Below are positions 11,943 to 31,442 of a DNA stretch of 64,000 nt, in pieces. The position numbers were made by a program, and so were the translations under genes. The notes below the pieces were generated by a model. It did no database searches and was not told where the DNA came from. It saw only the letters and a list, made by a program, of their open reading frames with translations. The stretch's first letter is position 1, and every line of letters starts with the position of its first letter. The DNA comes from a virus, in IMG/VR virus record IMGVR_UViG_3300045971_000277, positions 1-64,000 of that record; one strand, given 5' to 3'.

Positions 11943-12386
11943 ATGGATACACTAAATAATGCTCACGTCGTGCTAATTCTAGCAGGATACATTGTCACTC
12001 AAGCTTTAACAGCTACTTTAATCTATTGGGCTCTTAGTCGCCAATCGACTGCGCAAATTAAGAGCCTGTTTGAAAGTCGCGGCAAAGAGCATTTTATCGC
12101 GGGGTTCAACGACGAGCTGAGGTCAACCATCACGCGGGCCATCAAGGAAAGTCAGGCCGACGTACTCACATTGGTTTATGACCACGTAAATAAAGAGCTT
12201 GCCGCCACAACCCAAGTCACGCGTGAACTAGTCTCGGAACGCCTACGTGAGATCGATGCCCGTATTATGGACATGCGCGATGCCCTCCGTAAGATTGACA
12301 TGATGCGCGATGAGATGAGCGTGACGAATAAGATTATTGGCGTCATGAGTGAGCGCCTCAATCGGTTCTTTGAAGAGGCAAAATAA
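11943..12386 (+). CDS. single-pass membrane coiled-coil protein
   Basis: A 147-aa protein with one N-terminal membrane helix (about residues 8-30, VVLILAGYIVTQALTATLIY) followed by a long amphipathic coiled coil (about 40-145) rich in Glu, Arg and Met. The stop overlaps the next start (TAATG). The architecture is shared with spanins and with some anchoring proteins, but it sits far from the lysis cluster. An inner-membrane scaffold or ejection role is conceivable; no family recognised. Confidence 0.7.
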   Translation: MDTLNNAHVVLILAGYIVTQALTATLIYWALSRQSTAQIKSLFESRGKEHFIAGFNDELRSTITRAIKESQADVLTLVYDHVNKELAATTQVTRELVSERLREIDARIMDMRDALRKIDMMRDEMSVTNKIIGVMSERLNRFFEEAK

Positions 12387-13444
12387 TGCGGCCACGCCAC
12401 ACTAGCCAGAACGGTATCATGCTACACAAGGGCGACCTTGTGGCCGATGCTGCCTACGCTGGTGTCCCGCGTCTGCTTGATGAAGGTGTCGGCCGCATCC
12501 TGTCGATTAATGCTGGATACGCTAAAGTGGCGTGGCGTGATGGGTCCGAGGACACTGTGCGAGCGGCCGACCTGATCCGTGTGGTGGATCGATATGAGCC
12601 GATGATCCACGAGTCGGCCTACGAAATCCCGAAGTATGTGGCAGGCACCCGCGTAATCTTGGGTAATGGTGACCAAGGCCGCGTTATTGAAGAGGTCATG
12701 GGGCCTACTGGGTTCAAGTCATTCAAGATCAAGATTGAAAAGTCGGTAAGCCCGACCGGAGTTGGCCGCATGGTATATGCGACTAATAACGGGATGTCGC
12801 GAATTGCTTCGATTGAGCCTGATACGTGTGCTGCGTTTAGCAAAGAATCGGGCGAGGTCGTGGCGGTCGTCGGCTGCGAGTTAGTCGTTGGCGAAGCCGA
12901 TCAGCAGGTTGGACTGCAAAAGTACAGCAGTCTGCCGCAGGACCATGGCATGCTGTTTCCGTACGACCCGCCGCGTGCCGTCATGTTCCACATGGGCCGC
13001 GTCAGCTTCCCTATCGACGTTATATTCATCGACCAAAATGGCTATGTGGCCGCGATTGAAGAGTCTCGTGAGCCGGGCGTAGAAGAACATTGGGGCCACG
13101 GTCGGGTATCGGCCGTATTGGAAGTCAACGGTGGCTGGTGCAGCCGTAGTGGCGTTATGATTGGCGACCGTGTTAGACTTGGGTCGCGCCATTCGGCACA
13201 GGAAGCATTTGAGCCTCAACACAATCGGACCGACCACGCGGTACGCCCGGTCGACCCCAAGATGGATCCGAATCGGTTCAAGGGGCACGATGTGCCGGGT
13301 GAAGTTTTGAATAGCGGTGACAGTTTTGCCGGTGCCGGTAATGGACCGGGCCGTGATGATTTCGCGCAGCAGGACTCGACCTTCGGTCGTGATCCGACTA
13401 AGTCGATCGATGGACCGGGTAAAGACGTAACGCGACCCTCATAG
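12386..13444 (+). CDS. DUF192-domain protein
   Basis: A 352-aa protein. Two SH3/KOW-like stretches occupy about 15-65 (HKGDLVADA...GRILSINAGYAKVAW) and 83-145. Residues about 185-265 match the DUF192 pattern: HGMLFPYDPPRAVMFHMG, then FPIDVIFIDQNGYV, then VSAVLEVNGGW and a G-D pair. The C-terminal 90 residues are disordered (Asp/Gly/Pro). DUF192 proteins are usually small, often exported proteins of unknown role, so its presence inside a larger phage protein is unusual. The start is coupled (TAATG); a second ATG 11 codons later, just before the SH3-like part, is an alternative. Confidence 0.75.
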   Translation: MRPRHTSQNGIMLHKGDLVADAAYAGVPRLLDEGVGRILSINAGYAKVAWRDGSEDTVRAADLIRVVDRYEPMIHESAYEIPKYVAGTRVILGNGDQGRVIEEVMGPTGFKSFKIKIEKSVSPTGVGRMVYATNNGMSRIASIEPDTCAAFSKESGEVVAVVGCELVVGEADQQVGLQKYSSLPQDHGMLFPYDPPRAVMFHMGRVSFPIDVIFIDQNGYVAAIEESREPGVEEHWGHGRVSAVLEVNGGWCSRSGVMIGDRVRLGSRHSAQEAFEPQHNRTDHAVRPVDPKMDPNRFKGHDVPGEVLNSGDSFAGAGNGPGRDDFAQQDSTFGRDPTKSIDGPGKDVTRPS

Positions 13445-16701: not shown

Positions 16702-17061
16702 ATGGACGAAGAAATCCTAGAACGTTTGACGATCGTATCCGATGCCAGCTCGCGTCAGCTTATTGGCGAAGTTGACGTGACTGAAGGCAATGAGTATGTA
16801 ACGGTAGTACACCCGCTGATGTTCATGGAGCAGAAGAAAGCGGGCGCGGATGGACTGATAGTAACGCCGATGTTCATGCCGGTTCTGCTGTCGGAATACG
16901 TCGAAGCTATGCTGGTACGGCCTATCAGCATTTATACGGTACCGGCTACGTCAAAGCTCGCGATGCTATATCGGGCTGAATGGGACGCTTACTACAAGGC
17001 TGCGAAGGCATCGGAGGCCGGAATCATTATCACGGACAAGATGCCAGATGGCGGCAAATAA
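16702..17061 (+). CDS. 119-aa protein overlapping TerL start
   Basis: A small mixed alpha/beta protein (MDEEILERLTIVSDASSRQL...). Its last 14 bases overlap the terminase gene. Small terminase subunits commonly sit here, but no helix-turn-helix is evident, so that call is positional only. AGCTGAGGGCAC before the ATG provides a GAGG ribosome site. Confidence 0.7.
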   Translation: MDEEILERLTIVSDASSRQLIGEVDVTEGNEYVTVVHPLMFMEQKKAGADGLIVTPMFMPVLLSEYVEAMLVRPISIYTVPATSKLAMLYRAEWDAYYKAAKASEAGIIITDKMPDGGK

Positions 17062-19111
17062 TCTCAACATAGGTAATTACGAGAATAACGACGAGAGTAT
17101 AGATGACTTCTTACTCAATTTCTCGCTCCGTGTCCAGCAAGCTACCCGTATCGCGCCTGCGCCGGAAGAGAAAGACGAAGACTTAAAGTGGGTACGTGAG
17201 CCAGCGCCGAACGCAATCCAGTGGACCGTAGGCCGCAATTGGCTCAACAACCCATCGACGTATAAGTATCAGCGCCAGTATCAAGTCATCCGCGATTTCT
17301 TCGAACTGTATTGCCCGATCTGCAATCCACTAGACCACGAGTCTCGTGATTGCTGGGGCAAGACGCAGATGTATCTCGAGGATGAGGTACTGCTGGAGTG
17401 GAACCCGGCTGAACGCGACGACGTATGCCCAAAGTGCCGGTCGACTCGTAAAGAGTTCGTCGACGATGGCATGTTCAATAACTACAACCAGTTGCACGGT
17501 GTGGTCGGCATGAGAGGTGGCAAGACTGCCACGACCTCTATCATCGCTACGTATTTCGAACATCGCCTCTATAATATCCACTACGAGACTGAGGGTGGTA
17601 TATCGATTGCGCTCCAGCAGCTGCCGGGCCAGCCGTTCGACGTTACTTTCATCGCCTCGTCTGACATCCAGTCGCAAGATACGATTTGGGCTCACTATAT
17701 AGCGCGTCGCCGCCAATCACCGTGGCTGCAGCGTTATATATCGTGGATTAAGAAAGGTGAAGCAGCTGCGCCTAAACTACCTGGGGTCAAGTCCAATGTA
17801 TATGAAGAGCTAGAAAAGTCGATTACGAACGGCCATTTGAACGTAACGTTCGGGTCAATGAATAGTAACTCGTCCGGTCTAGCTGGGCGTACTCGCCTTG
17901 CTGCATTTATCGACGAATTATCGCGCTTCCAAAATACCGAATCGCGTATGTCAGCCGATGAAGCTTACCGCGTTCTTGAAAACTCGCTCGCTACGGTACG
18001 GACAATGGCGGCCAAGTCTGGCCTGCCGTCCTACCTTGGCCTGATGGGCTCGATTTCATCGCCGATCTCGATCGAAGACAAGGCAATGCGGCTGTGGTTC
18101 CAGTCGCCCGATATTAAGCGCATGTATGCGTTTAAATATCCGACGTGGCTGTTCAATCCATTCATCACCCGAGCCGATCTTGATGACGCGTTTATTAAGG
18201 ACTATGTAGGTGCGAAGCGCGACTTCGGCGCGGATCCGCCGGCCGCCACGTCTCCGCTGATCGAGGATGAAGAGCATTTTAGACGGCAGACGATTGCGCC
18301 AGACTTAAAGCCGACGACGCGAATCGAGTACTACGTCAAGACAGACAAGGTGGGTAACCAGTATAAGGCGGCCCGCGCATTGTCGACCGACTTTGACTCG
18401 CAGGTTGAACGCTTCGTCGTGTTTGACGCTGGCCTGACGTTCGACACGTTCGCTGGCGCCGCTGCCCATGGTGAGTGGGTTGAGACCGAGGAAGGTCCGG
18501 TCTGGATGACGATTTTCGATTGGATTCTACGGGTGCTACCAGAGAAACATCCAGTCCGTATGGATGTGTGGTTTGATTCTGTCCTAGACATCATTAAGAT
18601 ACATAAAGTAAAGCAACGAATCGCACGGGTTGAGTTTGACCGATGGAACTCAGCCCATCTGATCCAAAGCATCCGCGATATGTCAGTACCAGCTGAGCAT
18701 AAGGGTACGGTCGTCACGGACTTCGTTAAGTTCGTGGCCGATGCTAATATGGGTAAGGTGCGCCTACTACCACCGCTCGAGGATGACCATAAGGTCGAGC
18801 CACACCTGATGAGTCCAGCCGGTACCGTGTTCTATGAAATGGCCCGGATGGAGCGGTCGCCGGACTTGCGTAAAATCTTTAACCCGAAGAAGGGTGAGCG
18901 GATCGGCTGGAACTCAGACGACGTCGCACAGTGCGTCGTCCATGCCCACCGTATGGTGCAGGAGGTTATTGCTGTGGACCAGCACGGTGCCCATAATTCT
19001 CCAGAGATGCGCCTGCGTAACGAAACCGTGGGTGGGGCATCGTGGGCACGTGGCAGGGGTGGTGGCCGGGTCTTTGTACCTAAACAGAATATAGGAACGC
19101 GAGGTTGGTGA
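17048..19111 (+). CDS. large terminase subunit (TerL)
   Basis: The 687-aa DNA-packaging motor: ATPase plus nuclease that cuts and pumps genome DNA into proheads. ATPase motifs: Walker A GMRGGKTA at about 154-161, Walker B AAFIDE at about 285-290 with the catalytic Glu, and coupling motif GSISSP at about 334-339. The RNase H-like nuclease follows: FDAG at about 459-462, FDRWNS at about 530-535, and a late SDDVAQC with paired Asp. An N-terminal zinc site (CPIC at 89-92 and CPKC at 127-130) is inserted before the ATPase, which is not universal in TerL. The stop overlaps the next ATG (TGATG). No intein here, unlike portal and protease. Confidence 0.95.
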   Translation: MAANNLNIGNYENNDESIDDFLLNFSLRVQQATRIAPAPEEKDEDLKWVREPAPNAIQWTVGRNWLNNPSTYKYQRQYQVIRDFFELYCPICNPLDHESRDCWGKTQMYLEDEVLLEWNPAERDDVCPKCRSTRKEFVDDGMFNNYNQLHGVVGMRGGKTATTSIIATYFEHRLYNIHYETEGGISIALQQLPGQPFDVTFIASSDIQSQDTIWAHYIARRRQSPWLQRYISWIKKGEAAAPKLPGVKSNVYEELEKSITNGHLNVTFGSMNSNSSGLAGRTRLAAFIDELSRFQNTESRMSADEAYRVLENSLATVRTMAAKSGLPSYLGLMGSISSPISIEDKAMRLWFQSPDIKRMYAFKYPTWLFNPFITRADLDDAFIKDYVGAKRDFGADPPAATSPLIEDEEHFRRQTIAPDLKPTTRIEYYVKTDKVGNQYKAARALSTDFDSQVERFVVFDAGLTFDTFAGAAAHGEWVETEEGPVWMTIFDWILRVLPEKHPVRMDVWFDSVLDIIKIHKVKQRIARVEFDRWNSAHLIQSIRDMSVPAEHKGTVVTDFVKFVADANMGKVRLLPPLEDDHKVEPHLMSPAGTVFYEMARMERSPDLRKIFNPKKGERIGWNSDDVAQCVVHAHRMVQEVIAVDQHGAHNSPEMRLRNETVGGASWARGRGGGRVFVPKQNIGTRGW

Positions 19112-21207
19112 TGCGGCCGTACTACATTAGGCGTGCTGCCGTTGACATCGTCACGGAGCCAGAAGCAAAATCGACGCAGCCGTCGGGTAAGCTATCGCCC
19201 GAGACAGAGTATCCAGCGGGTGAGCAGTCGTCGTCGCAGTCCGGCGCCCCGTCTACAATGAAGGGCCTGCCACTGGTCGCGGAGTCTGACACGATAACAT
19301 TAGCCGATGTGGTGCGGATGGCCGAGATTGGTCAGGACTTAGATGACCTGACGACATCGCCGCCACCGCAGGGCGATTCCAAGATGACGTCAGTCCACAA
19401 TCAGGGTGATTCATATACGAATGACAACACGGGCGAAGGCACGATCCACATGGGCGCGATCGGGTCGAAGCCGTCGACGTATCCACCGCATTCGTCCGGC
19501 GACGGTCCGCTAGGTGAGCGGTTCGACGACACCGACGACATTATCGTGCACGCCACGGTCGGCACTGGTCGGGATCCGTATCGGGTTGGGTCGCTGTATT
19601 CATATAACGAACTGATACCGCAGCACCAGCATGAAGTTGATATTAACTGGAAGCGCCGCCGTGGCCGCCACTTCATGTGGTTACGTACATCGATGCGCCT
19701 GCCGGAGTTGCTATCAGAGTCACGTGAATGGTACGACAAGAACCGCGATAGCAAGTGGAAGATTGCGGATCGCGAGCGTGTCGTTGATCTAGCCGAAGTC
19801 TTCATGAAAGGTGCGACCGTCACACCGCTGTTGGTGTCACCCGTAGGTGAGGTCAACGGTGGGCTATGGGAAGGCTACCACAGGCTGAACGCACTTGATA
19901 TATTGGCGGCCCAGTCTGTACCGGTGCTGATGAAGGTTGACCTGCGTGACACCGACTGGAAGATCAAGCTAGCCGATGAGCAGCGTGAGCCGTGGGTCGC
20001 GGTTGACCTTGACGGCACCATATTGAACGAGGGGCCACACGAGGGCGACGGACGGCCTCCGCTGGGTGAGCCGTTCCCGGGTGCCAAGGAAGTCCTACAG
20101 AGCTTCATGGATCAAGGTTACCGCGTATCGATCTGGACTGCACGTCAGTATTTCGAAGACGACGACAGCGAAGGCGCTGAATGGCAGGCCGAGATTGATA
20201 AGCACCTCAAGTATCACCAAATCCCGTATAGTGACATCTACGTCGGCAAGAAGCCACCTGCGGACGCCTTTATTGACAACAAGGCTATACATTTCGATGG
20301 TAGTTGGCCCGATATGGCCAAGCAGACCGAGATGATGCTGCGCCAGGGTCACATCCGGATGATGGCGAAGAAGCACACTGGATGTTTCATTGGTCTGACG
20401 GTACCGGCGAAGGCCGCGAGTGCTCTGGCGGTCGAAGGCGGCGAGTCCGCTGATAGTATGCACGTCACGATGTTTTATCAGAAGGGCGTGACGGACGAAG
20501 AGGCGGCCAAGATAGAAGAAATTTGGACTGAACTATGGGATCAGTATCGGCCGCTACGGATCAAGCTAAGCAAGACTGATGTATTTGATGCGAGTGAGCA
20601 TTCGGACAATAAGGAAGTCTTAATCTGCCCGATTGACAGCGATGATATTCAAGAGCTGCACTCAACGCTGTTGGAGCGTATCGAGTCGGCCGGAATCGAG
20701 CTGCGACAGAGCTTCCCCGACTATAAGCCGCATGTGACGCTAAAGTATTTAGATGATGGTGAAGAGTATCCGGATCACATTGATCATGTTAGCTTTGAAA
20801 TCGATCAATATGAGTTTGATCCAGGTAGTGGTGTCGAGAAGGAAGCCCATGACGGCACCTTCTCGATATCGGACGACGCGGCAGATTCGTATACCGATGT
20901 TGACGGTTCCCGTGGCGACCTGTCGGTTGATCGGGCTCCGTCGACCGAACATCTGAAGCGTGGGGCGGTGGAGTTTAAGTGGCTGAAGACCGAGGGAATA
21001 AACAAATCATACATCTGCATGGTAGGTGATGAAAGGGTTGGATACGCTACCGGAGCAAGGCTGTTAGGCCAGATGGAAAATAAGCCGTGGGCTGCATATA
21101 AGATAGTAAAGGGATGCGAGATATTTATTGGTCACTACGCTACGGTATTCAAGGGTGGCGACCGTGGTGCCGCGCATGCAATTGAGGCGACATACACGAA
21201 GCGCTAG
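19111..21207 (+). CDS. ParB/Srx-like + HAD phosphatase + 2H phosphoesterase fusion
   Basis: A 698-aa fusion. Residues 1-150 are disordered. About 190-285 is a ParB/sulfiredoxin-like fold with the signature GYHRLNAL preceded by PLLVSP. About 295-400 is a HAD hydrolase: DLDGT nucleophile motif at 299-303, Thr in SIWTAR, Lys in VGKKP and the acidic motif AFIDNKAIHFDG. About 420-560 is a 2H phosphoesterase: HVT at about 451-453 and again at about 541-543 (KPHVTLKYL), the two HxT motifs that act on 2',3'-cyclic phosphates or similar linkages. The C-terminal 80 residues are unassigned. HAD plus 2H resembles nucleic-acid end-healing chemistry, and 2H enzymes also include phage proteins that destroy cyclic-nucleotide defence signals. 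The start is the ATG overlapping the TerL stop, with GAGG upstream. Confidence 0.85.
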   Translation: MRPYYIRRAAVDIVTEPEAKSTQPSGKLSPETEYPAGEQSSSQSGAPSTMKGLPLVAESDTITLADVVRMAEIGQDLDDLTTSPPPQGDSKMTSVHNQGDSYTNDNTGEGTIHMGAIGSKPSTYPPHSSGDGPLGERFDDTDDIIVHATVGTGRDPYRVGSLYSYNELIPQHQHEVDINWKRRRGRHFMWLRTSMRLPELLSESREWYDKNRDSKWKIADRERVVDLAEVFMKGATVTPLLVSPVGEVNGGLWEGYHRLNALDILAAQSVPVLMKVDLRDTDWKIKLADEQREPWVAVDLDGTILNEGPHEGDGRPPLGEPFPGAKEVLQSFMDQGYRVSIWTARQYFEDDDSEGAEWQAEIDKHLKYHQIPYSDIYVGKKPPADAFIDNKAIHFDGSWPDMAKQTEMMLRQGHIRMMAKKHTGCFIGLTVPAKAASALAVEGGESADSMHVTMFYQKGVTDEEAAKIEEIWTELWDQYRPLRIKLSKTDVFDASEHSDNKEVLICPIDSDDIQELHSTLLERIESAGIELRQSFPDYKPHVTLKYLDDGEEYPDHIDHVSFEIDQYEFDPGSGVEKEAHDGTFSISDDAADSYTDVDGSRGDLSVDRAPSTEHLKRGAVEFKWLKTEGINKSYICMVGDERVGYATGARLLGQMENKPWAAYKIVKGCEIFIGHYATVFKGGDRGAAHAIEATYTKR

Positions 21208-21255: not shown

Positions 21256-24200
21256 ATGAGCATCGAGATTTTTGGATCGTATGGCAACCCGCGCCAGCAG
21301 GCAGCGAAGCCCAGCAATATGCCGGGTGGTCTAACGGCGACGCAGACGGAGCAATTGGCATCGCGTTTTGAAACAATGATGCCAAGCATCACGTCTGGTG
21401 CGGCCGATCCTAGCCGGATTCAGAAGCTATTCACCGACACCCTACCGAAGGGTGCCAATTGGGATCCGCGTACGTCCAAGACTGCCCAGATGGGATCTAA
21501 CATCTCTGGTATGGGTGGCAGTAGCGGCGGCAAGACAATGATGACGAACCAACGGCCTTACCAGCCTGAGTTCGAATGTTACCTACATGGGACTACATTG
21601 TCGTACATGGACGGCACTACAGTCGAAATCCAAAATGCTAAAGTAGGCGATAAAGTTTTGGATAAGCTTGGACATATCCAAACCGTTGAACGCTGGTGGT
21701 GTAGTGGTAATCCAGAAGAATTAATGGAAATTATGTTGTGGGGTGGAGTGAAGTTATACTCTACTACCAACCATAATCACCATGTATTTAAGATGCCGCG
21801 TGAATGTCCGACGGGCTGCGGACTACAGCACTTCCACAATAAACGATACGGGGCGCAGCATTTTGGTGGCGTCGGCACGAATCAAGTGACGATGCCGAAG
21901 CAGTATTTCAAGATTGAAAAGCTACCGGCTGGCGAGATAGTGCAGGGTGATTATCTCATGATGCCGCGTAAGTTTGACGAAATCGAGACGGATGTAACGC
22001 CAGATCGAGCCCGTCTTCTTGGCTATTATATAGCAGAAGGTGATGCGGCAGGCGGCAATGGCATTCAATTTACCTTTGGTTCGCATGAATTAGATACACT
22101 AGTAAAAGATACCGTAGCGATTCTAAGCTCTGAGTTTAATGTGGCTGCGGGGATGTCTGATCGTCGGACGCACGCGAGGCCAGCAAACGCCATAACGATT
22201 AGAAGCTCTACTACCAGCGCACGAGCTGCTGCGGAATGGTTTATACGACACGGTGGCCAATATTGTTATACGAAGCGGCTGTCGGCTGATGTGATGCGAT
22301 GGCCGCTTGTCTTGAAGGAAGAGTTAGTGCGTGGCATGTATCGTGGCGATGGCAGCCAGTTCTATGTCAAAACCGAGAAGGATGGCTACGTCAGCTACAG
22401 ATTCGATTGTACTTATACGACGACGTCAAAGCAACTTGCGTCACAGCTACAGTTAGTACTGGCCCAGCTTGGCATTTTTGCTAAGATTAAACATAAGAAG
22501 GCTAAAAAGCGTGAGACTGGCATCAATGAATCAGATTGTTATGTTCTTATATCGCGCGCCGATCATGGTGGCAGGCTTGCCGACTTAGTATGGGGCGAGG
22601 ATTCGCTATTTAAGTCGGACTCGTCTGCGCCGACTGAATCACACTACTTAGTTGATGCCGATTACATTTACATAGAAGTAAAGTCGGCTAAGGTCGTTCA
22701 GAATGATCAACCCGTATATAACTTAACGGTATCGGGCGATCACTCATATCTTGTCTACAATGTAGGCACATATAACTCGCCCGACCGCCAACAGTATCCG
22801 GTCCACCGCATCCTAGCCAATCGATACTGGCGCCTGTTCTATAAGATGGACCCGGTCATCGGCAACTGCATCGACATGTACGGCGACATGCCGTGGTCGC
22901 CGTTTAAGCTGACCGGTCCAGGCGTCGAGGGCTCCATCCTAAATACGATGGAGGCTACGGCCCAAGAGTCAGGGCTGATGCACACGCTACCGGCGATGAC
23001 GAAGGAATTCTTCATCACGGGCGAGGCAATTCCCCACCACTTCTTTGACGACGCCAAGGGGTATTGGACCTATATAGCCCTACACAATCCAGACCAGCTG
23101 GAAGTGATCGACGCGCCATTTATCAAGATGGACCCCATCATGGAGTTCGTGCCGGATGACCGGCTTCGGTCCATTATGGGCTCCAATCATCCAGCGCTGC
23201 GTAAGGTGCGAGATCAGATGCCGCCGCAGCTGCAGTCGCTGCTGCAGGCTCGTCAAAATATACCGCTATCCAACATCAACGCGACCTTTATCCCGCGTAA
23301 GCTACATCCGTACGATACGCGTGGTACATCAATCTTCTCCCGCCTCTGGCGTATCTTCATGTATGAGGACGCCATATTTAATGCGAGTATCCAGACGGCC
23401 CGTCGCCACGCTGGCCCGCTTAAGGTCGCCAAGTTAGGTAATGCACAGACCGGTTGGATCCCGGGCCCAGAGCACGAGGCAAAGCTCTTGCAGCTTCTGG
23501 CCCAGGCCGAGCTTGACCCGCATGCATGGCTCGTCTACCACTATGGTATCGCGTTCGAAACGGTCGGCACAACCGACCGTATGATGACGATTAACCGTGA
23601 ATGGGAAATCATCGAGCGTATCAAGTTGGTCGCGCTTGGCATCTCTAAGAGCTTCCTCACGGGCGAGGTAACATATGCATCAGCCGCTACCGGCTTGCAG
23701 GTCTTCTTGCAGCGTCTCAAAGCACTGCGCAATTTCTTTGAACAAAAGTACATTATCCCGAAGTTTTTCCTACCGCTTGCTGAAATTAATGGCTGGATTC
23801 GTCGATCGCCTGCTGAAATCCAACATCAGTTCCGCATTAAGCGAAGCCATCAAGAACTCCTAAATGAGCAGCGCTACATCGTACCCAAGATTGTGTGGGA
23901 GAAGTCGCTAGACCCAGCGATCGATCAGGCACTTGTGACCGCTATGCAGGCGCTCGAGAACATGGGAGTCAAGTTTAGCAAGACGACCAAGATGGCGACG
24001 GTCGGAATCGCGTTCGAAGAGGAAGCTCGCAAGATCGCTCAGGAAGAGCAATTTGAGCGCCAGTTCCTGCCGAAGCTCCCGTCACAGCAGCCGCCCGAAG
24101 GTGGCGGTGGAGGCGGGGGTGGCGTCGGTGGCATGTCGGGCGGTCCAGAGCCGATGCCCGCGCCGGGTAATGAGGGCGATACGTCGGGCGCGGAGCAGGC

Positions 24201-24801
24201 CGGTGGCGGCACAGCTGGCCCGCCCGGTCCAACGCCGGAACCGGCTGCACTCAAGACGCAGGCGGGCGAAGGCAAGAAGACTGATGAGGTTCAGTCGATC
24301 GAATCGCACGAGCCCGGGTACGCGGAGAACACTAAGCTACTTCGGTCTAAGATTTGGCGTGACAATCGCTACGGCAATTGGGACGCGGAAGAGGCCGAAG
24401 ATATTATTGAACTTCTACATACGGCCACCACTGATTCTCCGTTCTGGACTAAGCTGAGCAAGGATCCAGAGTTCATGGCGGCGCTCAAGTCGGAAGAGCC
24501 CGGCGCGGTGTGGCACGAGATGGAGAAGTATCTGACGAAGTGTGGCTATCCAGACCAAGATCAGGATGAGCTATACGATATCTTGGTGGCCGAGAATGTG
24601 ATGCCGAAGCGTGACCTAGAACATCTGCAGGAGATCGAAAAGCAGATGGAGGCTGAATTTGTCGGTAGCGATCCAAACCTGCTGGTCGGCGCGTCGACAG
24701 CAGCTACCGGCAATCTCAGTGGTGACATTACTGAACGCCTCATGAAGGCCCGCAAGGCCAATGCGAAGGCGACGAAGCCTAAGTCGAAGAAGAGGAAATA
24801 G
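21256..24801 (+). CDS. portal protein precursor with intein
   Basis: A 1181-aa precursor. The mature product would be about 781 aa after removal of a 400-aa intein. The C-extein begins SPDRQQYPVHRILANRYW and continues with a portal-type body (GNCIDMYGDMPWSPFKL), a long helical central region, and after about residue 950 a poly-Gly linker and acidic C-terminal domain. The portal is the dodecameric ring through which TerL packages DNA; the call rests on this pattern and its place between terminase and prohead protease. The N-terminal 107 residues are disordered and contain KTAQMG at 75-80, a possible maturation site. AAGG lies 5 bases before the ATG. Confidence 0.85.
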   Translation: MSIEIFGSYGNPRQQAAKPSNMPGGLTATQTEQLASRFETMMPSITSGAADPSRIQKLFTDTLPKGANWDPRTSKTAQMGSNISGMGGSSGGKTMMTNQRPYQPEFECYLHGTTLSYMDGTTVEIQNAKVGDKVLDKLGHIQTVERWWCSGNPEELMEIMLWGGVKLYSTTNHNHHVFKMPRECPTGCGLQHFHNKRYGAQHFGGVGTNQVTMPKQYFKIEKLPAGEIVQGDYLMMPRKFDEIETDVTPDRARLLGYYIAEGDAAGGNGIQFTFGSHELDTLVKDTVAILSSEFNVAAGMSDRRTHARPANAITIRSSTTSARAAAEWFIRHGGQYCYTKRLSADVMRWPLVLKEELVRGMYRGDGSQFYVKTEKDGYVSYRFDCTYTTTSKQLASQLQLVLAQLGIFAKIKHKKAKKRETGINESDCYVLISRADHGGRLADLVWGEDSLFKSDSSAPTESHYLVDADYIYIEVKSAKVVQNDQPVYNLTVSGDHSYLVYNVGTYNSPDRQQYPVHRILANRYWRLFYKMDPVIGNCIDMYGDMPWSPFKLTGPGVEGSILNTMEATAQESGLMHTLPAMTKEFFITGEAIPHHFFDDAKGYWTYIALHNPDQLEVIDAPFIKMDPIMEFVPDDRLRSIMGSNHPALRKVRDQMPPQLQSLLQARQNIPLSNINATFIPRKLHPYDTRGTSIFSRLWRIFMYEDAIFNASIQTARRHAGPLKVAKLGNAQTGWIPGPEHEAKLLQLLAQAELDPHAWLVYHYGIAFETVGTTDRMMTINREWEIIERIKLVALGISKSFLTGEVTYASAATGLQVFLQRLKALRNFFEQKYIIPKFFLPLAEINGWIRRSPAEIQHQFRIKRSHQELLNEQRYIVPKIVWEKSLDPAIDQALVTAMQALENMGVKFSKTTKMATVGIAFEEEARKIAQEEQFERQFLPKLPSQQPPEGGGGGGGGVGGMSGGPEPMPAPGNEGDTSGAEQAGGGTAGPPGPTPEPAALKTQAGEGKKTDEVQSIESHEPGYAENTKLLRSKIWRDNRYGNWDAEEAEDIIELLHTATTDSPFWTKLSKDPEFMAALKSEEPGAVWHEMEKYLTKCGYPDQDQDELYDILVAENVMPKRDLEHLQEIEKQMEAEFVGSDPNLLVGASTAATGNLSGDITERLMKARKANAKATKPKSKKRK
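21577..22776 (+). mobile_element. LAGLIDADG intein in portal gene
   Basis: Residues 108-507 of the portal precursor. Block A starts with Cys (CYLHGTTLSYMDG). Block B has TTNHNHH (about 170-176). Two LAGLIDADG helices follow: RARLLGYYIAEGD (about 251-263) and ELVRGMYRGDGS (about 356-367). Block F reads VYNLTVSGDHSYLV and block G ends GTYN before Ser+1. All expected splicing residues are present (Cys1, B-block His, penultimate region, terminal Asn, Ser+1), though Tyr rather than His precedes the terminal Asn, which is atypical and may slow splicing. The homing endonuclease acidic residues (E at the first and D at the second motif) look intact. Confidence 0.92.
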
Positions 24802-24887: not shown

Positions 24888-25010
24888 ATGGGTTTTCATA
24901 AAACTGGACTTGCCACATCGTTAGGTATCGTAGAGCAGCCTAAGCAGGCTGAGAAGCCACCGGAGTCAGTTGAAAAGCCCCAACCGAAGCAAGCACAGCC
25001 GGTTAAATAA
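24888..25010 (+). CDS. 40-aa Pro/Gln/Lys-rich small protein
   Basis: A short protein, MGFHKTGLATSLGIVEQPK followed by a Pro/Lys/Gln/Glu tail. GAGG lies 4 bases before the ATG, and its stop overlaps the protease start as TAATG, which supports real translation. No family recognised. Its place between portal and protease suggests a head-assembly helper. Confidence 0.6.
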   Translation: MGFHKTGLATSLGIVEQPKQAEKPPESVEKPQPKQAQPVK

Positions 25011-28000
25011 TGAGTTTCGTCAGGTACGCTAAGATACAAGTACTAGCCTCATGGGAAGTCGATCAAGACGGCCATAGCAGAATCGCGCACGCGAATGTAA
25101 CGGCAGCGGAAGCCCCGCTGCCGTCGTTCTATGCGAATCCTGGCAACCCCGGTACGTTGGATGTCAAAGAAGCCCTAGCGAAGGTTTCGAAGCAATATGA
25201 TATCAGTGCTGACCCGCGTGAATACATTTTTGAAGCGGTACGAGCCGTCACCGCAGGCGTATCTAATGAGAATGGCGACGCTTTTCATCGTGACGAACTT
25301 CTTCGTTTCGATCATCGCCTTGGCTGCGCAGTTTATCAGACTTTTATCCTAAAGCCACACCACGTTAATCACCGCGCCGAGAATCCTAAGACGGCCCGTG
25401 GCGTTATCCTAGATTCACACTACAACGACACCGCGCCTGCCTTAGAGATGTGCCCAAAGGAAGGTTGCGGCAATCGTACAGCAGAGCGTGAAGGCCGTGA
25501 CCGTACCGGCATCTACTGTAAGGCTTGCGGCACCACGGTCAAGGATGAATTCGTTGAGGTCCTGTTGGCCGTCAATGCATCGAAGGACCCGTCGTTTGCC
25601 GAAGGCGTGCGGACCGGCGTACTGAATGCGACCTCGATGGGCTGCTTTGTCCCAGGCACTCTTGTTACGATGGCAGATGGCAGCCGTAAGGCCATTGAGG
25701 CTGTTGTGCCGGGCGATTTTGTTATCACCCACACTGGCGCGGTGGCTGAGGTAGATGAAACCTCCGAACACGCTTGTGATGACGACATTGTTAGTATTTC
25801 TGTTGCGGGTGTGCAGGCCGACATCGTAGCCACTAATGACCATCCATTCTGGGTTGTAGATCGCGACACCAACTCTGGCAAGTGGGTGCACGCGTGTGAA
25901 GTTAAGCAGGGTGACTACTTACTTAGCCCGAAGCGCGACACTAAGCCAGTTGAAATAGACATTAAGTTAGCACGCCTAGCAGGGTATTTTGCTGCAGAAG
26001 GTAACTTTATTAGAGCTTACGATGGTCCGCTATCTGGCGAGCGAGTTGGGGTTGAGTTCTCTCTGAATGCGACAGAAACATGCTATTTAGATGAGATCCA
26101 AAAACTATTGATAGATCTTGGCGCCGATCCAAAGCGCTACGTGCGGGCTGACCGTAACATTGGCGTTGTTAAGGCGTATCGTTGCAAGGAGTTAGCTGAT
26201 AAGTTATTGCAACTAGTCGGCGAGCATGCACACAATAAGCATCTGTCCGATGAGATTTACGGTTGGCCTCGCGAAGCCCAGTTAGCATTTGTTGGCGCCA
26301 TCATTAATGGCGATGGTTTTGGCATTCACGAATACGGACATTCATGGACCCAGTTCACGTCTGTGAGCCAAGACCTTTGTGATCAAGTATCTCAGTTATT
26401 GGTTAACCTTAATATCCCACATCGCACTTCTGTTACAGCTAAGCGTTCCGGGTTTGGTTCTGAACGTCCCGTTTATGACCTGCATATAACAGGCGACTAT
26501 CAATTGGAGTTGGCTACTTCTACCGACAAGGTTAAGAAGACCTCTGCCACTGGTAATAAGATGGTTGCCAGTGTTCCATCTGATGCTGGCATTCTTCGTA
26601 AGGTGCGTAAGGTTGAACCAATCCAGTATACCGGAAACGTATATAATTTCGGCGTAAAACACGACGATCACTCTTACGTAGCGGGTGGCATTGCGGTTCA
26701 CAATTGCGTGTGCGACTCCACCACATGCAACGTGTGCGACCACGTCGCCTATAACAAGAGCGAGTTCTGCACTCACATCCGTGCAGGCAACAAGAAGAAG
26801 ACATTCAAGACGGCGGCAGGCGAGCGTGTCGCGTTTGAGTGGTGCAATAACGTCGTGTTTACCGAGCTAAGCCGGGTTGACCAGCCAGCTGACCCGACCG
26901 CACTACAGCAGGAGATTCTCGAGTTCACGGCGAAGATTGAACAAGAATCGACGAAGCCAGAAGCGCTCCGGAATGAGACTGAGCTACTCATCCTGTCGAA
27001 ACGCCTAGCCGACCTCAACGTTAGGGTGGCACAGATGCAGAAAGTGCCTGCCCCGCAACAGACCGACGCTCCCGCGCCGGGTCCAAAAGAGAACGCAGAG
27101 CTACCACAAGATAAACCGGACCAGTCAGCTAAGGTGCCGATACAGGAATTTGCTGACGGTAAAGAAGAGAAAGAGAAGAACGAAGAGGCACCCAGCCTTG
27201 CCGCAGTTGGCATCGATCCGGAGTCGATCGGTGCAGGTCACATCGCCGGACTTTCGGATCAATATTTAGCAGAACTAGACGCAGCAGCCAATCACGTGGC
27301 AACCAAGCCCGAGGGAGTTATAATGTCACAGTTTAAGTTCAAGACAGCATATAAGGATATGCGCCTGCAGGTAACTAAGCAGGGTAACTATCGGGTCTTT
27401 AACGATGCCGGTACCGTTTTCGTCGTCCGTCCGGAGCCGAAGGTGGCGGTGGCGGATCGCAAGGAGTTCGGCATCGGCATCATGCGTGACATTGCTGATA
27501 CCGGCATCGTCGCGACTGCCAAGAAGTACAGCGTGGCCTTCGGCCCGCGTACTGCTAGCGTCCTAGAGCATCACCTCGAGGATTTCGAGAAGGGCCGCGA
27601 CGAGGGCGACACCAAGCCTGCTACGGCTGACGGCATGCGTGATCACGCCGACAGCGAGCACGGCACGCCTAAGAAGAAGATGACGGAAGGCGTTGAGCGC
27701 GACCACGCTGAAAGCGAGCACGGCAAGCCGAAGCAGACCGTGACGGAAGACCACGTTGAGGATATCGAGGATGGCCGCAAAGAGGCCCCGGATACCGCCG
27801 TGGGTGAAGAGAACACGGTCAACAAGGACAAGCACCCGAAGAAGACAGTCAAGGACAACGTGCTGGACGACGCTGTCGTGGACCATGCTGAGGGCAAGAA
27901 CAAGAAGAAGGCTCAGGCGGATGAGAAGTCCAAGCCGTCCAAGTCTACGTCCAAGCCGTCTACGTCCAAGCCGTCTACGTCCAAGCCGTCGAAGAAGGAT

Positions 28001-29374
28001 GAGGCATCTAAGCCAGCCAGCAAGGGTGCGGCTCCCAAGGAGTCTGCCCCGCCTGCGGCCAATGAGCCGTTCGGCGGCGCGACTGACATCAGCGACGACG
28101 AGCTTGACTCGGCCTTCGACTCGGCCACCACGTCGCCGGGCGAGCAGGAAGGCACTGCGACCGCAATCCGCCTCTGGACCGCTAACAAGACCGTCATTGC
28201 CGACCTTGGCAAGCAGATCGAGTCGCTCAAGGCTGTCAACACTGGTCTGATGGTAGACCAGATTGCACCAGTTCTACGTGATATCGCGTCTAAGTCGATG
28301 GAAGTTGATGGCGTCGTGCACAAGCTGTCTGAGTGGACTCAGGGCTCGACTTCGTACGGCAAGGTGTTTGAGCAGCTAAACGCCCAGCTGTCCACCGAGC
28401 TACAGGCCGTTGCGGCTGCGCTGAAGGAGCAGAACACCACGCAGGTAGTCCGCCAGGAACTGAAGCCGGGTAAGCTGGCACAGCTTGAGGGTCGTAAGCT
28501 TGAGGTGGCTCTCGCGGCTGTCTCGGCTACCCTCGATAAGATGCTACAGATGGGCCAGGGCCAGGGTGACGTTGGTATGCCGCTGGCGGCCAAGAAGGAT
28601 GGCAAGCCGTGGTACGAGAAGTTCAACAAGAATGAATCTGGCAGCAAGTCGGCTAGCAAGTCCAAGTCCGCTAGCAAGGGGGCCTCAGTGGAAAAGACCG
28701 CGATGGATAAGGAATGCAGCCGTCACGGTAAGGCTTGCTCGTCTAAGGGTGCGAAGACCGCCGGGATGGAAGTCACGGCGGCCAGCAAGAAGTACGAGTC
28801 CCGTCTAGACCGCGTCTACAAGCGTCGGTTTGCGCAGCTTGAGTCGGAGAAGAACAAGAAGGTGGCGGAGGTTGAGGTTGATGTGGCTGGCAAGTTTAAG
28901 CGTGCGCTTAAGCTGGTCGCGTCCCGTCAGCGTCTAAATCTCGAGACCTCACCGATCAAGGCGGCGTTCGCTGACACCCTACTGACTCCAATGGACTTGG
29001 GCGGTGACGATTACTACCCCGGCATGGACGAGCAGCTTGCAGTGTCGCTGATCGAGCGCGCAGCAGCTGAGGGTCTCGAAGAGTTCGTCGAGAAGACCAT
29101 CGAGCGTGCTGCCGAAGTCATGAAGCTGTCCGAGGACGCGTTCAACGCACTGGAGGCCGATATCAAGAATCTACAGACGATGGCTCCTCCGGTGTCGCGT
29201 AAGGCTGCAACTGGCCACGATGGCAGCAACGTGCGTCGTGCCGCTGCTCAGGGTAATCTTCAGATTGCACCGTCATCCGTAGAAACCGCACCGACCGCTG
29301 ATGGTCGGCACAATCGCACAGAGCTTCGTACCGCATTAAATAACACCAAGATCAACCGCCAACGGGGTATATAG
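25010..29374 (+). CDS. prohead protease precursor with intein, fused to scaffold
   Basis: A 1454-aa precursor (1100 aa after splicing). The N-terminal protease domain joins residues 65-211 to residues 566 onward: NENGDAFHRDEL, a His-rich KPHHVNHRAENPKTARGVI (candidate catalytic His), a four-Cys zinc site (148, 153, 170, 173) and VLNATSMG (candidate catalytic Ser209). After the intein, CVCDSTTCNVC...FCTHI continues the domain. The pattern (HVNH, ARGVI, a xSMG-C junction) is that of phage capsid maturation proteases, though the exact peptidase family is not settled by eye. From about residue 640 the protein becomes a charged scaffold-like region with Lys/Glu repeats and a Ser/Lys/Pro tract. Lies directly after portal. 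Confidence 0.8.
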   Translation: MSFVRYAKIQVLASWEVDQDGHSRIAHANVTAAEAPLPSFYANPGNPGTLDVKEALAKVSKQYDISADPREYIFEAVRAVTAGVSNENGDAFHRDELLRFDHRLGCAVYQTFILKPHHVNHRAENPKTARGVILDSHYNDTAPALEMCPKEGCGNRTAEREGRDRTGIYCKACGTTVKDEFVEVLLAVNASKDPSFAEGVRTGVLNATSMGCFVPGTLVTMADGSRKAIEAVVPGDFVITHTGAVAEVDETSEHACDDDIVSISVAGVQADIVATNDHPFWVVDRDTNSGKWVHACEVKQGDYLLSPKRDTKPVEIDIKLARLAGYFAAEGNFIRAYDGPLSGERVGVEFSLNATETCYLDEIQKLLIDLGADPKRYVRADRNIGVVKAYRCKELADKLLQLVGEHAHNKHLSDEIYGWPREAQLAFVGAIINGDGFGIHEYGHSWTQFTSVSQDLCDQVSQLLVNLNIPHRTSVTAKRSGFGSERPVYDLHITGDYQLELATSTDKVKKTSATGNKMVASVPSDAGILRKVRKVEPIQYTGNVYNFGVKHDDHSYVAGGIAVHNCVCDSTTCNVCDHVAYNKSEFCTHIRAGNKKKTFKTAAGERVAFEWCNNVVFTELSRVDQPADPTALQQEILEFTAKIEQESTKPEALRNETELLILSKRLADLNVRVAQMQKVPAPQQTDAPAPGPKENAELPQDKPDQSAKVPIQEFADGKEEKEKNEEAPSLAAVGIDPESIGAGHIAGLSDQYLAELDAAANHVATKPEGVIMSQFKFKTAYKDMRLQVTKQGNYRVFNDAGTVFVVRPEPKVAVADRKEFGIGIMRDIADTGIVATAKKYSVAFGPRTASVLEHHLEDFEKGRDEGDTKPATADGMRDHADSEHGTPKKKMTEGVERDHAESEHGKPKQTVTEDHVEDIEDGRKEAPDTAVGEENTVNKDKHPKKTVKDNVLDDAVVDHAEGKNKKKAQADEKSKPSKSTSKPSTSKPSTSKPSKKDEASKPASKGAAPKESAPPAANEPFGGATDISDDELDSAFDSATTSPGEQEGTATAIRLWTANKTVIADLGKQIESLKAVNTGLMVDQIAPVLRDIASKSMEVDGVVHKLSEWTQGSTSYGKVFEQLNAQLSTELQAVAAALKEQNTTQVVRQELKPGKLAQLEGRKLEVALAAVSATLDKMLQMGQGQGDVGMPLAAKKDGKPWYEKFNKNESGSKSASKSKSASKGASVEKTAMDKECSRHGKACSSKGAKTAGMEVTAASKKYESRLDRVYKRRFAQLESEKNKKVAEVEVDVAGKFKRALKLVASRQRLNLETSPIKAAFADTLLTPMDLGGDDYYPGMDEQLAVSLIERAAAEGLEEFVEKTIERAAEVMKLSEDAFNALEADIKNLQTMAPPVSRKAATGHDGSNVRRAAAQGNLQIAPSSVETAPTADGRHNRTELRTALNNTKINRQRGI
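25643..26704 (+). mobile_element. LAGLIDADG intein in prohead protease gene
   Basis: Residues 212-565 of the precursor. Block A starts CFVPGTLVTMADGS. Block B has TNDHPFW (about 275-281). LAGLIDADG helices are RLAGYFAAEGN (about 322-332) and LAFVGAIINGDG (about 425-436). Block F reads VYNFGVKHDDHSYVAG and block G ends GIAVHN before Cys+1, so the His-Asn pair is standard. Insertion lies three residues after the presumed catalytic Ser. It shares only the general fold with the portal intein, with little close identity by eye, so the two were probably acquired separately. Confidence 0.93.
27323..29374 (+). CDS. nested in-frame scaffold protein (internal start)
   Basis: An in-frame ATG at codon 772 of the protease ORF is preceded by GAGGGAG at 5-base spacing, the best ribosome site in the ORF interior. 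It would give a 683-aa protein beginning MSQFKFKTAYKDMRLQV, covering a small globular N-terminus, acidic/His repeats (DHAESEHGKPK type), a Ser/Lys/Pro tract, and helical segments to the end. Lambda C/Nu3 and other phages make scaffold from the protease gene in just this way. I infer that both fused and free forms are made. Confidence 0.65.
   Translation: MSQFKFKTAYKDMRLQVTKQGNYRVFNDAGTVFVVRPEPKVAVADRKEFGIGIMRDIADTGIVATAKKYSVAFGPRTASVLEHHLEDFEKGRDEGDTKPATADGMRDHADSEHGTPKKKMTEGVERDHAESEHGKPKQTVTEDHVEDIEDGRKEAPDTAVGEENTVNKDKHPKKTVKDNVLDDAVVDHAEGKNKKKAQADEKSKPSKSTSKPSTSKPSTSKPSKKDEASKPASKGAAPKESAPPAANEPFGGATDISDDELDSAFDSATTSPGEQEGTATAIRLWTANKTVIADLGKQIESLKAVNTGLMVDQIAPVLRDIASKSMEVDGVVHKLSEWTQGSTSYGKVFEQLNAQLSTELQAVAAALKEQNTTQVVRQELKPGKLAQLEGRKLEVALAAVSATLDKMLQMGQGQGDVGMPLAAKKDGKPWYEKFNKNESGSKSASKSKSASKGASVEKTAMDKECSRHGKACSSKGAKTAGMEVTAASKKYESRLDRVYKRRFAQLESEKNKKVAEVEVDVAGKFKRALKLVASRQRLNLETSPIKAAFADTLLTPMDLGGDDYYPGMDEQLAVSLIERAAAEGLEEFVEKTIERAAEVMKLSEDAFNALEADIKNLQTMAPPVSRKAATGHDGSNVRRAAAQGNLQIAPSSVETAPTADGRHNRTELRTALNNTKINRQRGI
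27944..27988 (+). repeat. 15-bp tandem repeat in scaffold
   Basis: Three perfect head-to-tail copies of TCTACGTCCAAGCCG encode STSKP repeats in the disordered Ser/Lys/Pro tract of the scaffold. Because the copies are identical, the number may vary between relatives. Confidence 0.85.
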
Positions 29375-30224: not shown

Positions 30225-31442
30225 ATGGCACAGGTACATAACCCATACCGTCAGATCAAGCGCACAGCGTCAGCTGCCGCTCCTGCGGTTGCGCCCGTAA
30301 AGGCGCCAGTCAAGACCCGTTTAGCCAGCAAGGCCGATGAAAGCAATTTCGACGCCACTGGCACTTTCAACCCGCAGGCTTACGGCGGGTTCCGCGAGGA
30401 CATTCAGAGCGCAATTGGCAACAAGCGCGCTAAGATGTTCGATGGCAGCGGCGAACTGAACGCGTACGATAATAAGGACGCGCTGCAACAGATCGCTTAC
30501 CTGCTTAACAACGTCACCAAGAAGGCCTCCCCCGGTACGTTCTACCGTGAGGCTTCCAACATGAAGTCGGATGACCGCCGCAAGGTTCTAGCGGCTGCTC
30601 TAGCTGATCCGACCGGTGAAGGCTTTGCTATCGTTGGCCAGGAGCTTCTGCTCCCGATCAAGGATATCATCGACTACGAGGGCTGGGCACGCAAGATCTT
30701 CCGCGTCCGTCCGCTCGCGCAGGGTGAGTTGTTCCGCATCGCCAAGGACGTTCGTGCGACTGCCTGGACCGTTGGTCAGGATGGTCAATCGATCGAGTCC
30801 CGCGTGTACGGTAAGTACATCACCCCGTCTGAGTTCAAGGTTACCTCGTTCCCCACCGTTGACATCGAAGACATCTATCAGATGAACTTCGACGTCCTCG
30901 ATCGCGCTCAGGACACTGCGCGTCAGGAGATCGAGCTTGAAGAGGATAAGCGCGCTCTTGCCATCATCGACCGCGCCAGCGTCACCGTCAACAGCCCCAC
31001 CATCTTCTCGACTCTCGGCGTGGCTGCTTTCGAAGACATCCGCTATCAGGTTGAGCGCCACCGTCTCGTGGTTGCCAAGTTCCTCATCAACCGTCGCGAG
31101 CTTTCCGACCTCATCAAGACCGCCATCGGTCAGGGTGCAGGTGGGCAGCACGTTGACCCGGTGACCGAGCGCGAGCTAATCCTCGCCGGTTACGTCGGCA
31201 ACGTCCTCAATGCTCAGATCATCACCGCCGCAGGCACTGGCGTGGAAGAGGTTGTTCCGGCCGGTACCGTGTACGCTGCGACCGATTCTGAGTACATGGG
31301 CGAGATGGGCGTCCGCGTTGAACTGTTCTCCGAGCCGTTCAACATGTTCTCTCAACGACGGTTGGTTAAGGGCTGGGCTTTTGGTGAAATCATTGGTTTC
31401 GCCATTCCTAACTCGCGTGCCGTGGCTAAGGGTACCAAATAG
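30225..31442 (+). CDS. major capsid protein
   Basis: A 405-aa protein in the expected place after protease/scaffold, with an optimal ribosome site (AAGGAGATATAACC) and a strong terminator right after the gene, both marks of very high expression. The first about 60 residues are Ala/Pro/Lys-rich and may be removed on maturation. The body has the HK97-fold order: a long helix with YLLNNVTKK, a beta/peripheral domain (ELFRIAKDVRATAWTVGQDG), a spine helix with IELEEDKRALAIIDRA, and a C-terminal strand region (EVVPAGTVYAATDSEYMGEM ... WAFGEIIGFAI). Codon use is markedly optimised (AAG, GAG, CGC, CTC) compared with neighbours. Confidence 0.85.
   Translation: MAQVHNPYRQIKRTASAAAPAVAPVKAPVKTRLASKADESNFDATGTFNPQAYGGFREDIQSAIGNKRAKMFDGSGELNAYDNKDALQQIAYLLNNVTKKASPGTFYREASNMKSDDRRKVLAAALADPTGEGFAIVGQELLLPIKDIIDYEGWARKIFRVRPLAQGELFRIAKDVRATAWTVGQDGQSIESRVYGKYITPSEFKVTSFPTVDIEDIYQMNFDVLDRAQDTARQEIELEEDKRALAIIDRASVTVNSPTIFSTLGVAAFEDIRYQVERHRLVVAKFLINRRELSDLIKTAIGQGAGGQHVDPVTERELILAGYVGNVLNAQIITAAGTGVEEVVPAGTVYAATDSEYMGEMGVRVELFSEPFNMFSQRRLVKGWAFGEIIGFAIPNSRAVAKGTK

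Follow-up and report, generated by a model that had tools for sequence, protein, structure and literature searches.

A putative head-cargo protein with exchangeable enzyme domains between a conserved leader and tail in the terminase-portal slot of a virus genome

We analysed a stretch of 64,000 nucleotides (the window) comprising positions 1 to 64,000 of the IMG/VR virus record IMGVR_UViG_3300045971_000277, and focused on the gene lying between those for the large terminase and the portal protein. This gene encodes a 698-aa protein, P0001, described by an earlier sequence-only reading as a fusion of a ParB/sulfiredoxin (Srx)-like fold, a HAD hydrolase and a 2H phosphoesterase. The open reading frame (ORF) was found exactly at the positions given by that reading, between terminase and portal, and is single-copy within the 101,896-base virus record of which the window is a part. 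Comparison with related viruses reveals the main pattern, which the sequence-only reading had missed: rather than forming a one-off fusion, the enzymes are interchangeable cargo enclosed by a leader and a tail that are both conserved. The gene is divided as follows.

19111..21207, + strand: 698-aa candidate cargo protein of polyvalent type, P0001; ATG at 19111, stop ending at 21207, with TGATG at 19109-19113 shared with the terminase stop
19111..19572, + strand: conserved N-terminal leader, residues 1-154, with the motifs AAVDIV, YPAGE, GQDLDDLTT, DSYTNDN..IHMG and YPP..GPLG.RFDD; core motif block at 19321-19458
19573..19977, + strand: tentative ParB/Srx-like segment, residues 155-289, with GYHR at residues 255-258 (19873-19884)
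19978..20343, + strand: capless HAD phosphatase domain, residues 290-411, with D299, D301, T303, T343, K381 and D389
20341..20832, + strand: 2H phosphoesterase domain, residues 411-574, with HxT at residues 451-453 and 541-543
20872..20964, + strand: conserved tail motif, residues 588-618 (DSYTDVDGSRGDLSVDRAPSTEHLKRG), which in relatives is C-terminal or nearly so
20965..21204, + strand: extra C-terminal segment of 80 aa, unmatched in Pfam and, by BLAST, in the relatives retrieved

Single-sequence searches of viral contigs with P0001 or the terminase gave no match; two-sequence alignments with Virus Rctr197k succeeded. This virus (KX853510, from a methane-oxidising enrichment) is the closest named relative, with a capsid 69%, a portal 51% and a terminase 43% identical to those of the window, and the ORF in its terminase-portal slot, 2175 aa long, carries two HExxH motifs, a GNAT domain and, C-terminally, a HAD domain 47% identical to that of P0001. 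About 30 contigs with a readable slot were gathered by portal, terminase, HAD and leader alignment searches. Across these related IMG/VR contigs and Rctr197k, the slot is occupied by a mosaic protein of about 120 to 2175 aa. Counted by genome, from profile searches combined with Pfam, its modules are HAD (19), InPase (9), 2H (5, namely the window, L017, L028, L031 and L043) and GGACT (3), with GNAT, DUF7178 and DUF5661 each in 2 genomes and metallopeptidase-like motifs also present; a few near-duplicate contigs are among those counted, and the totals are affected by the gene starts, which were chosen by script. The slot protein reads leader-HAD-InPase-2H-GGACT-tail in L028 (1097 aa), leader-2H-tail in L043 (722 aa) and leader-InPase-tail in L074 (438 aa), and L031, a 178-kb relative, has the L028 architecture in two genes, leader-HAD-InPase and 2H-GGACT-tail, with an HNH endonuclease gene between them (L031:1863-7885). 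This turnover of cargo extends to empty carriers: L041 and L042 encode a 196-aa protein made of leader and tail with no enzyme, directly before the portal gene, and the slot protein of L024 is the leader alone. In most relatives the slot gene abuts or overlaps the terminase gene and is therefore probably made together with the packaging genes. Separately, a gene for a D12-class adenine methyltransferase (PF02086, 2e-35) precedes the HAD gene in the terminase-portal slot of L044 (L044:10108-10953).

Leader and tail were recognised from an all-against-all comparison of slot proteins together with alignments of their N- and C-termini. The leader consensus spans about 150 residues (..AAVNVVD..DGDVGG...FP.EFPAGE...PRQAE.GQ.LT.LTTE....W.DSY.DEN.FED.D.KLG...YPPY..G.GP..RYED..) and the tail consensus about 30 (..WPEDD..ENEYTDGTEDRENRDIPRPPETEK.KY). 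Hidden Markov models (HMMs) built without the window protein recover P0001 among 5540 ORFs, with E-values of 5.5e-13 for the leader, 4.9e-5 for the core block and 3e-5 for the tail; the best E-values from reversed and shuffled decoys were 0.057, 0.33 and 0.015, respectively. All clear matches to the leader and tail HMMs were slot proteins, with 0 elsewhere in the window, in the remaining genome or at other loci. Additional sequence is inserted between the leader motifs in L016, L017 and L043. Hydrophobic residues make up 23% of the leader and 33% of the enzyme part, and the stretch after the 2H domain is modelled at a predicted local distance difference test score (pLDDT) of ~30; the low hydrophobicity and the low model confidence are both consistent with flexible connectors. 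A processing site at the PAGE/TTE motifs of the leader was considered and dropped, the E not being kept in all relatives. To our knowledge, neither the shared leader and tail nor the empty carriers have been described before, nor has HAD as the most frequent cargo, and the literature searched held no match for them.

The HAD domain of P0001 matches phrog_1238 at 1e-15, with the Pfam HAD models under cut-off when the single sequence is used, and the profile of the family matches PDB entries 1xpj (1.6e-9) and 2obb (9.5e-9) and the PNKP phosphatase (1.1e-5). D299, D301, G302, T303, A344, R345, K381 and D389 do not vary among 19 relatives; at T343 the only substitution is Ser. In the AlphaFold model this part reaches a pLDDT of ~90 or more; its matches are 1xpj, AfhF (9iqw, a phosphatase from a phage) and 2obb, with the T4 Pnkp phosphatase lower at 1e-3. 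Motifs I-IV together with the structural match of the model confirm the predicted membership in the HAD phosphatase superfamily. By sequence and model, the nearest relatives are small capless phosphatases (1xpj, 2obb, AfhF), with 3'-phosphatases of the PNKP type more remote. The P0001 domain lies far under the NCBIfam cut-offs of the BT0820, EcbF and DNA-3'-Pase families; in the DNA-3'-Pase model TIGR01664 there was no listing for P0001, and L028 reaches 14.9 of the required 107.65 bits.

Two Pfam models, 2_5_RNA_ligase2 (1.3e-10) and LigT_PEase (2.1e-6), recognise the 2H domain over their cut-offs, and a third, Acb1, matches at 5.6e-6 with 26.6 bits, just under its cut-off of 27. The two HxT pairs, H451/T453 and H541/T543, are invariant across 10 aligned 2H domains. 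The domain is modelled mostly at pLDDT 80-90, and the best PDB match of the model in Foldseek is the Deinococcus radiodurans CPDase 5h7e (E 2e-7), with LigT and the Acb1 structure 7t26 (6e-6) also matched. The 2H profile in turn matches the Acb1 structure 9q2g at 1.8e-6 and the penguinpox cyclic GMP-AMP (cGAMP) phosphodiesterase at 1e-4. Cyclic phosphodiesterases of the ThpR/LigT type outscore Acb1 for the P0001 domain, by sequence as well as by structure, and the domain falls short of the NCBIfam ThpR cut-off. The predicted fold and the two HxT motifs confirm membership in the 2H phosphoesterase superfamily. As a putative role, hydrolysis of a nucleotide signal, either cyclic or 2'-5', appears likelier than RNA end repair. 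The HAD and 2H assignments of the sequence-only reading were borne out by these searches: both folds were recovered in the models, and the HxT and DLDGT residues are retained in relatives. Where PHROG gives the names 'RNA ligase' and 'phosphoheptose isomerase', these were taken as labels and not as evidence for those activities. A further 633-aa protein, encoded upstream of the portal gene in L029 (L029:2900-4801), passes the Pfam cut-off for Acb1 (9.6e-7) and matches MutS_III weakly.

The ParB/Srx-like fold named by the sequence-only reading was assigned, tentatively, to residues 155-289. The GxHR signature is present, in the stretch ..PLLVSPVGEVNGGLWEGYHRLNALDILAAQSVPVLM.. of P0001, and similar segments occur in L014, L031 and L053, with R258 kept in all three. 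The ParB-HAD pair is present in a second virus, L014, where it is 49% identical and the ParB/Srx segment alone 54% identical. Support for the fold itself is weak: phrog_1033 (ParB-like) is matched at E=0.004, the top matches of the segment profile in PDB, which include the ParB-like nuclease 6ryk (0.44) and Spo0J (2.0), are non-significant, and the model of the segment is of low confidence. A ParB/Srx-like identity is accordingly plausible and tentative. In L053 (L053:6431-7273) the slot protein has 280 aa and a terminal GHHR ParB/Srx-like segment, with neither HAD nor 2H.

The genes for head formation and packaging around P0001 are the following.

17048..19111, + strand: large terminase; phrog_17415 at 3e-49, 43% identical to Rctr197k
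21256..24801, + strand: portal protein with intein; phrog_16240 at 2e-75, LAGLIDADG_3 and Intein_splicing (Pfam)
25010..29374, + strand: head maturation protease with intein; phrog_18299 at 4.7e-26, Hint and LAGLIDADG matches
30225..31442, + strand: major capsid protein; phrog_2522 at 2.6e-56, 69% identical to Rctr197k

Additional internal sequence is also found in the terminase and portal genes of several relatives. Right after the capsid gene, a 566-aa ORF (31544-33244, + strand) has N-terminal helix-turn-helix matches followed by a Vsr-like endonuclease segment (Vsr 5e-4, MTES_1575 1e-3), and at its C-terminus lies a Mom-family domain (PF25680, 4.5e-20); it is unusual for a homing-type nuclease to be fused to such a DNA-modification fold. 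Positions 12386-13444, upstream of the packaging genes, encode a 352-aa protein with a central DUF192 domain (1.3e-24). A portal alignment search of bacterial and archaeal genomes gave no match, and the capsid alignment search gave a single phage contig, L076 (JANXME010000009), placed in an Actinomycetes metagenome-assembled genome, with a capsid 78% identical over 402 residues; its binning is a weak hint to the host.

Polyvalent proteins were defined by Iyer et al. (2017; PMC5512222), who placed the 2H, InPase and DdrB-like ParB domains in the phage-type ones only; the phage proteins are encoded near virion genes, and their injection with the DNA was proposed. P0001 likewise carries at least two unrelated activities (HAD and 2H being firm), has relatives of variable architecture and adjoins virion genes. 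We consider it probable that P0001 is a late-made head cargo protein of the polyvalent type, which holds swappable enzymes within a conserved carrier and is delivered with the DNA. For loading into the virion, injection, processing and all substrates, we infer the following course. The protein would be made late, together with the terminase. Leader and tail form a conserved carrier, in the simplest reading a loading signal that would bring the protein into the prohead beside the portal. Between them sit the interchangeable enzymes, here the ParB/Srx-like domain, the HAD phosphatase and the 2H phosphodiesterase. At infection, the whole protein or its proteolytic pieces would enter the cell alongside the DNA, where 2H may act on RNA or hydrolyse a nucleotide signal of the cyclic or 2'-5' type, HAD may remove phosphate and the ParB/Srx-like domain may act on DNA or a nucleoside triphosphate. 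The phosphoester chemistry would then be directed at nucleotides or nucleic acids of host defence, which suggests that head-loaded cargo could disarm host defences during entry of the phage DNA. Of the two roles offered by the sequence-only reading, the injected anti-defence enzyme fits this evidence and is in line with the proposal of Iyer et al. (2017; PMC5512222).

Several points weigh against this explanation. We know of no virion proteomics for any leader carrier, and the leader is unlike any targeting sequence known to us. A position beside the terminase is no proof of packaging, and the sequence of a HAD or 2H domain reveals no substrate. Leader and tail are not detectable in some relatives (L014, L044, L060), a leader search of cultured phage records found no carrier, and the PADLOC models gave no match. 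The ParB/Srx assignment is weak, and the genome is a fragment.

The same domains could instead serve a virion-carried end-repair enzyme, the other role offered by the sequence-only reading, in which 2H would open 2',3'-cyclic phosphates and HAD would strip 3'-phosphates so that cut host RNA (e.g., tRNA) or phage DNA becomes resealable. HAD followed by 2H is adjacent in P0001, an order that recurs in L017 and L028; the top structural match of 2H is a bacterial 2',3'-cyclic phosphodiesterase, and the HAD matches to PNKP and T4 Pnkp given above point the same way. Most HAD-bearing relatives, however, lack 2H, and the kin of the HAD domain are mainly capless phosphatases. Searches for a ligase partner also disfavour end repair: RNA_ligase PF09414 is present in 1/11 related genomes, which is neither that of the window nor Rctr197k, and RtcB in 0/11, with control genomes positive for both (a search with PF09511 was uninformative, having no match in its control). 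Similarly, having seen no association with RNA ligases, Iyer et al. suggested that polyvalent 2H domains are RNases or degraders of counter-invader nucleotide signals (Iyer et al., 2017; PMC5512222). An RNA-repair role is lowered by these results rather than dismissed, because host ligases exist and the records are fragments, and we hold it to be improbable. A narrower possibility is that 2H is a working Acb1-like hydrolase which degrades the cyclic oligonucleotides of CBASS (cyclic oligonucleotide-based antiphage signalling system) or CRISPR defences, delivered before gene expression. Such a role narrows the head-cargo explanation and is compatible with it. Both HxT motifs are kept, and the Acb1 matches in Pfam and PDB as well as the match to the penguinpox enzyme speak for it; yet phosphodiesterases of the ThpR/LigT type score higher, and the 2H active site is common to many substrates, so that the fold leaves the target unsettled. 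We regard this narrow form as possible but rather unlikely.

The carrier itself allows another view, in which the protein of leader and tail is fundamentally a part of the head or the packaging machine, structural or for assembly, on which enzymes have accreted as passengers with metabolic rather than anti-defence roles. In favour of this, the empty carriers of L041 and L042 and the leader-only protein of L024 occupy the same slot, and the slot is conserved while its cargo varies. Against this, active-site residues are strictly conserved and the cargo is therefore under catalytic selection, and the repertoire of InPase, 2H, GNAT and ParB matches that of conflict-associated polyvalent proteins; we think a structural root unlikely. 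Phages can carry enzyme genes among their late genes, and P0001 might be an ordinary non-virion late enzyme that lies by chance within the head gene cluster. Against this, the slot is kept across ~30 divergent genomes and leader and tail occur nowhere else in the sequence searched; of the explanations weighed here, a non-virion enzyme appears to us the least probable. Beyond the head-cargo explanation, leader and tail may serve a large group of uncultured phages as a general cassette dedicated to cargo loading, in which the empty carrier is an essential part of the head, an idea that we hold tentatively and somewhat short of even confidence. If true, any enzyme placed between leader and tail would be taken into the head next to the portal and reach the cell along with the DNA, and injected effectors could be found by signature alone. 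We know of no earlier packaging signal that is recognisable in sequence and common to a polyvalent family; such a cassette would be the first. In phage P1 the Dar proteins have no shared signal (PMC9024508). The present family, whose leader and tail can be recognised, whose slot is fixed and whose enzymes are exchanged or naturally absent, makes it directly testable how polyvalent proteins are selected for packaging, and it supplies a signature by which injected phage enzymes may be sought.

Compared with known enzymes, the HAD domain shares its fold and four catalytic motifs with the capless HADs 1xpj, BT0820 (2obb) and AfhF (9iqw) and with the PNKP 3'-phosphatase, and differs from the BT0820, EcbF and DNA-3'-Pase families in its low NCBIfam scores. 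The 2H domain shares its fold and two HxT motifs with ThpR/LigT and Acb1 while staying under the ThpR and Acb1 cut-offs. A 2H domain is also carried on a head protein in Streptomyces phage Geonosis, where it is fused to a Phage_Mu_F head domain; P0001, in contrast, has no MuF domain and uses another carrier. In Arthrobacter phage Kovu, 2H adjoins the portal and protease genes. With regard to the leader, the inner-head proteins of the giant phage SPN3US have propeptides of >100 aa thought to target them to the prohead (PMC5694885). The T4 capsid targeting sequence and the SPN3US/phiKZ propeptides resemble the leader, by description, as N-terminal extensions tied to prohead entry; they differ in that a second conserved motif stands on the C-terminal side here, where any leader cleavage is putative. 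The best experimental parallel is the antirestriction protein DarB of phage P1 (ORF 10), which adjoins the portal (11) and protease (12) genes, is head-packaged and injected, and needs only its first 30 residues for capsid packaging, with no consensus common to the Dar proteins (PMC9024508). Both are large polyvalent proteins encoded just before portal and protease, with a packaging signal at the N-terminus of DarB and a candidate one here. DarB is nevertheless an antirestriction protein with other domains and a signal of at most 30 residues without shared consensus, whereas the leader here has ~150 residues and is common to the family.

Finally, the statement of the sequence-only reading that no described system has this order was too strong, because Iyer et al. 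had proposed injection for 2H-bearing polyvalent proteins, and such proteins with 2H, InPase and ParB domains are known (Iyer et al., 2017; PMC5512222). The likeness extends to unrelated enzyme domains in one polypeptide, variable architectures, a position beside virion genes of terminase-portal phages, and the 2H, InPase, ParB/Srx and GNAT domains common to both sets (PMC5512222), with ParB of the DdrB-like type there and a tentative ParB/Srx-like segment in P0001. The differences are that the cargo here is enclosed by a conserved leader and tail, which mark one orthologous terminase-portal slot, and that HAD is the commonest cargo; the terms haloacid, glutamyl and cyclotransferase are absent from the 2017 main text (PMC5512222). 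HAD phosphatases and gamma-glutamyl cyclotransferases are added to the likely injected activities, and the slot proteins are a variant of the phage polyvalent proteins rather than a new category.

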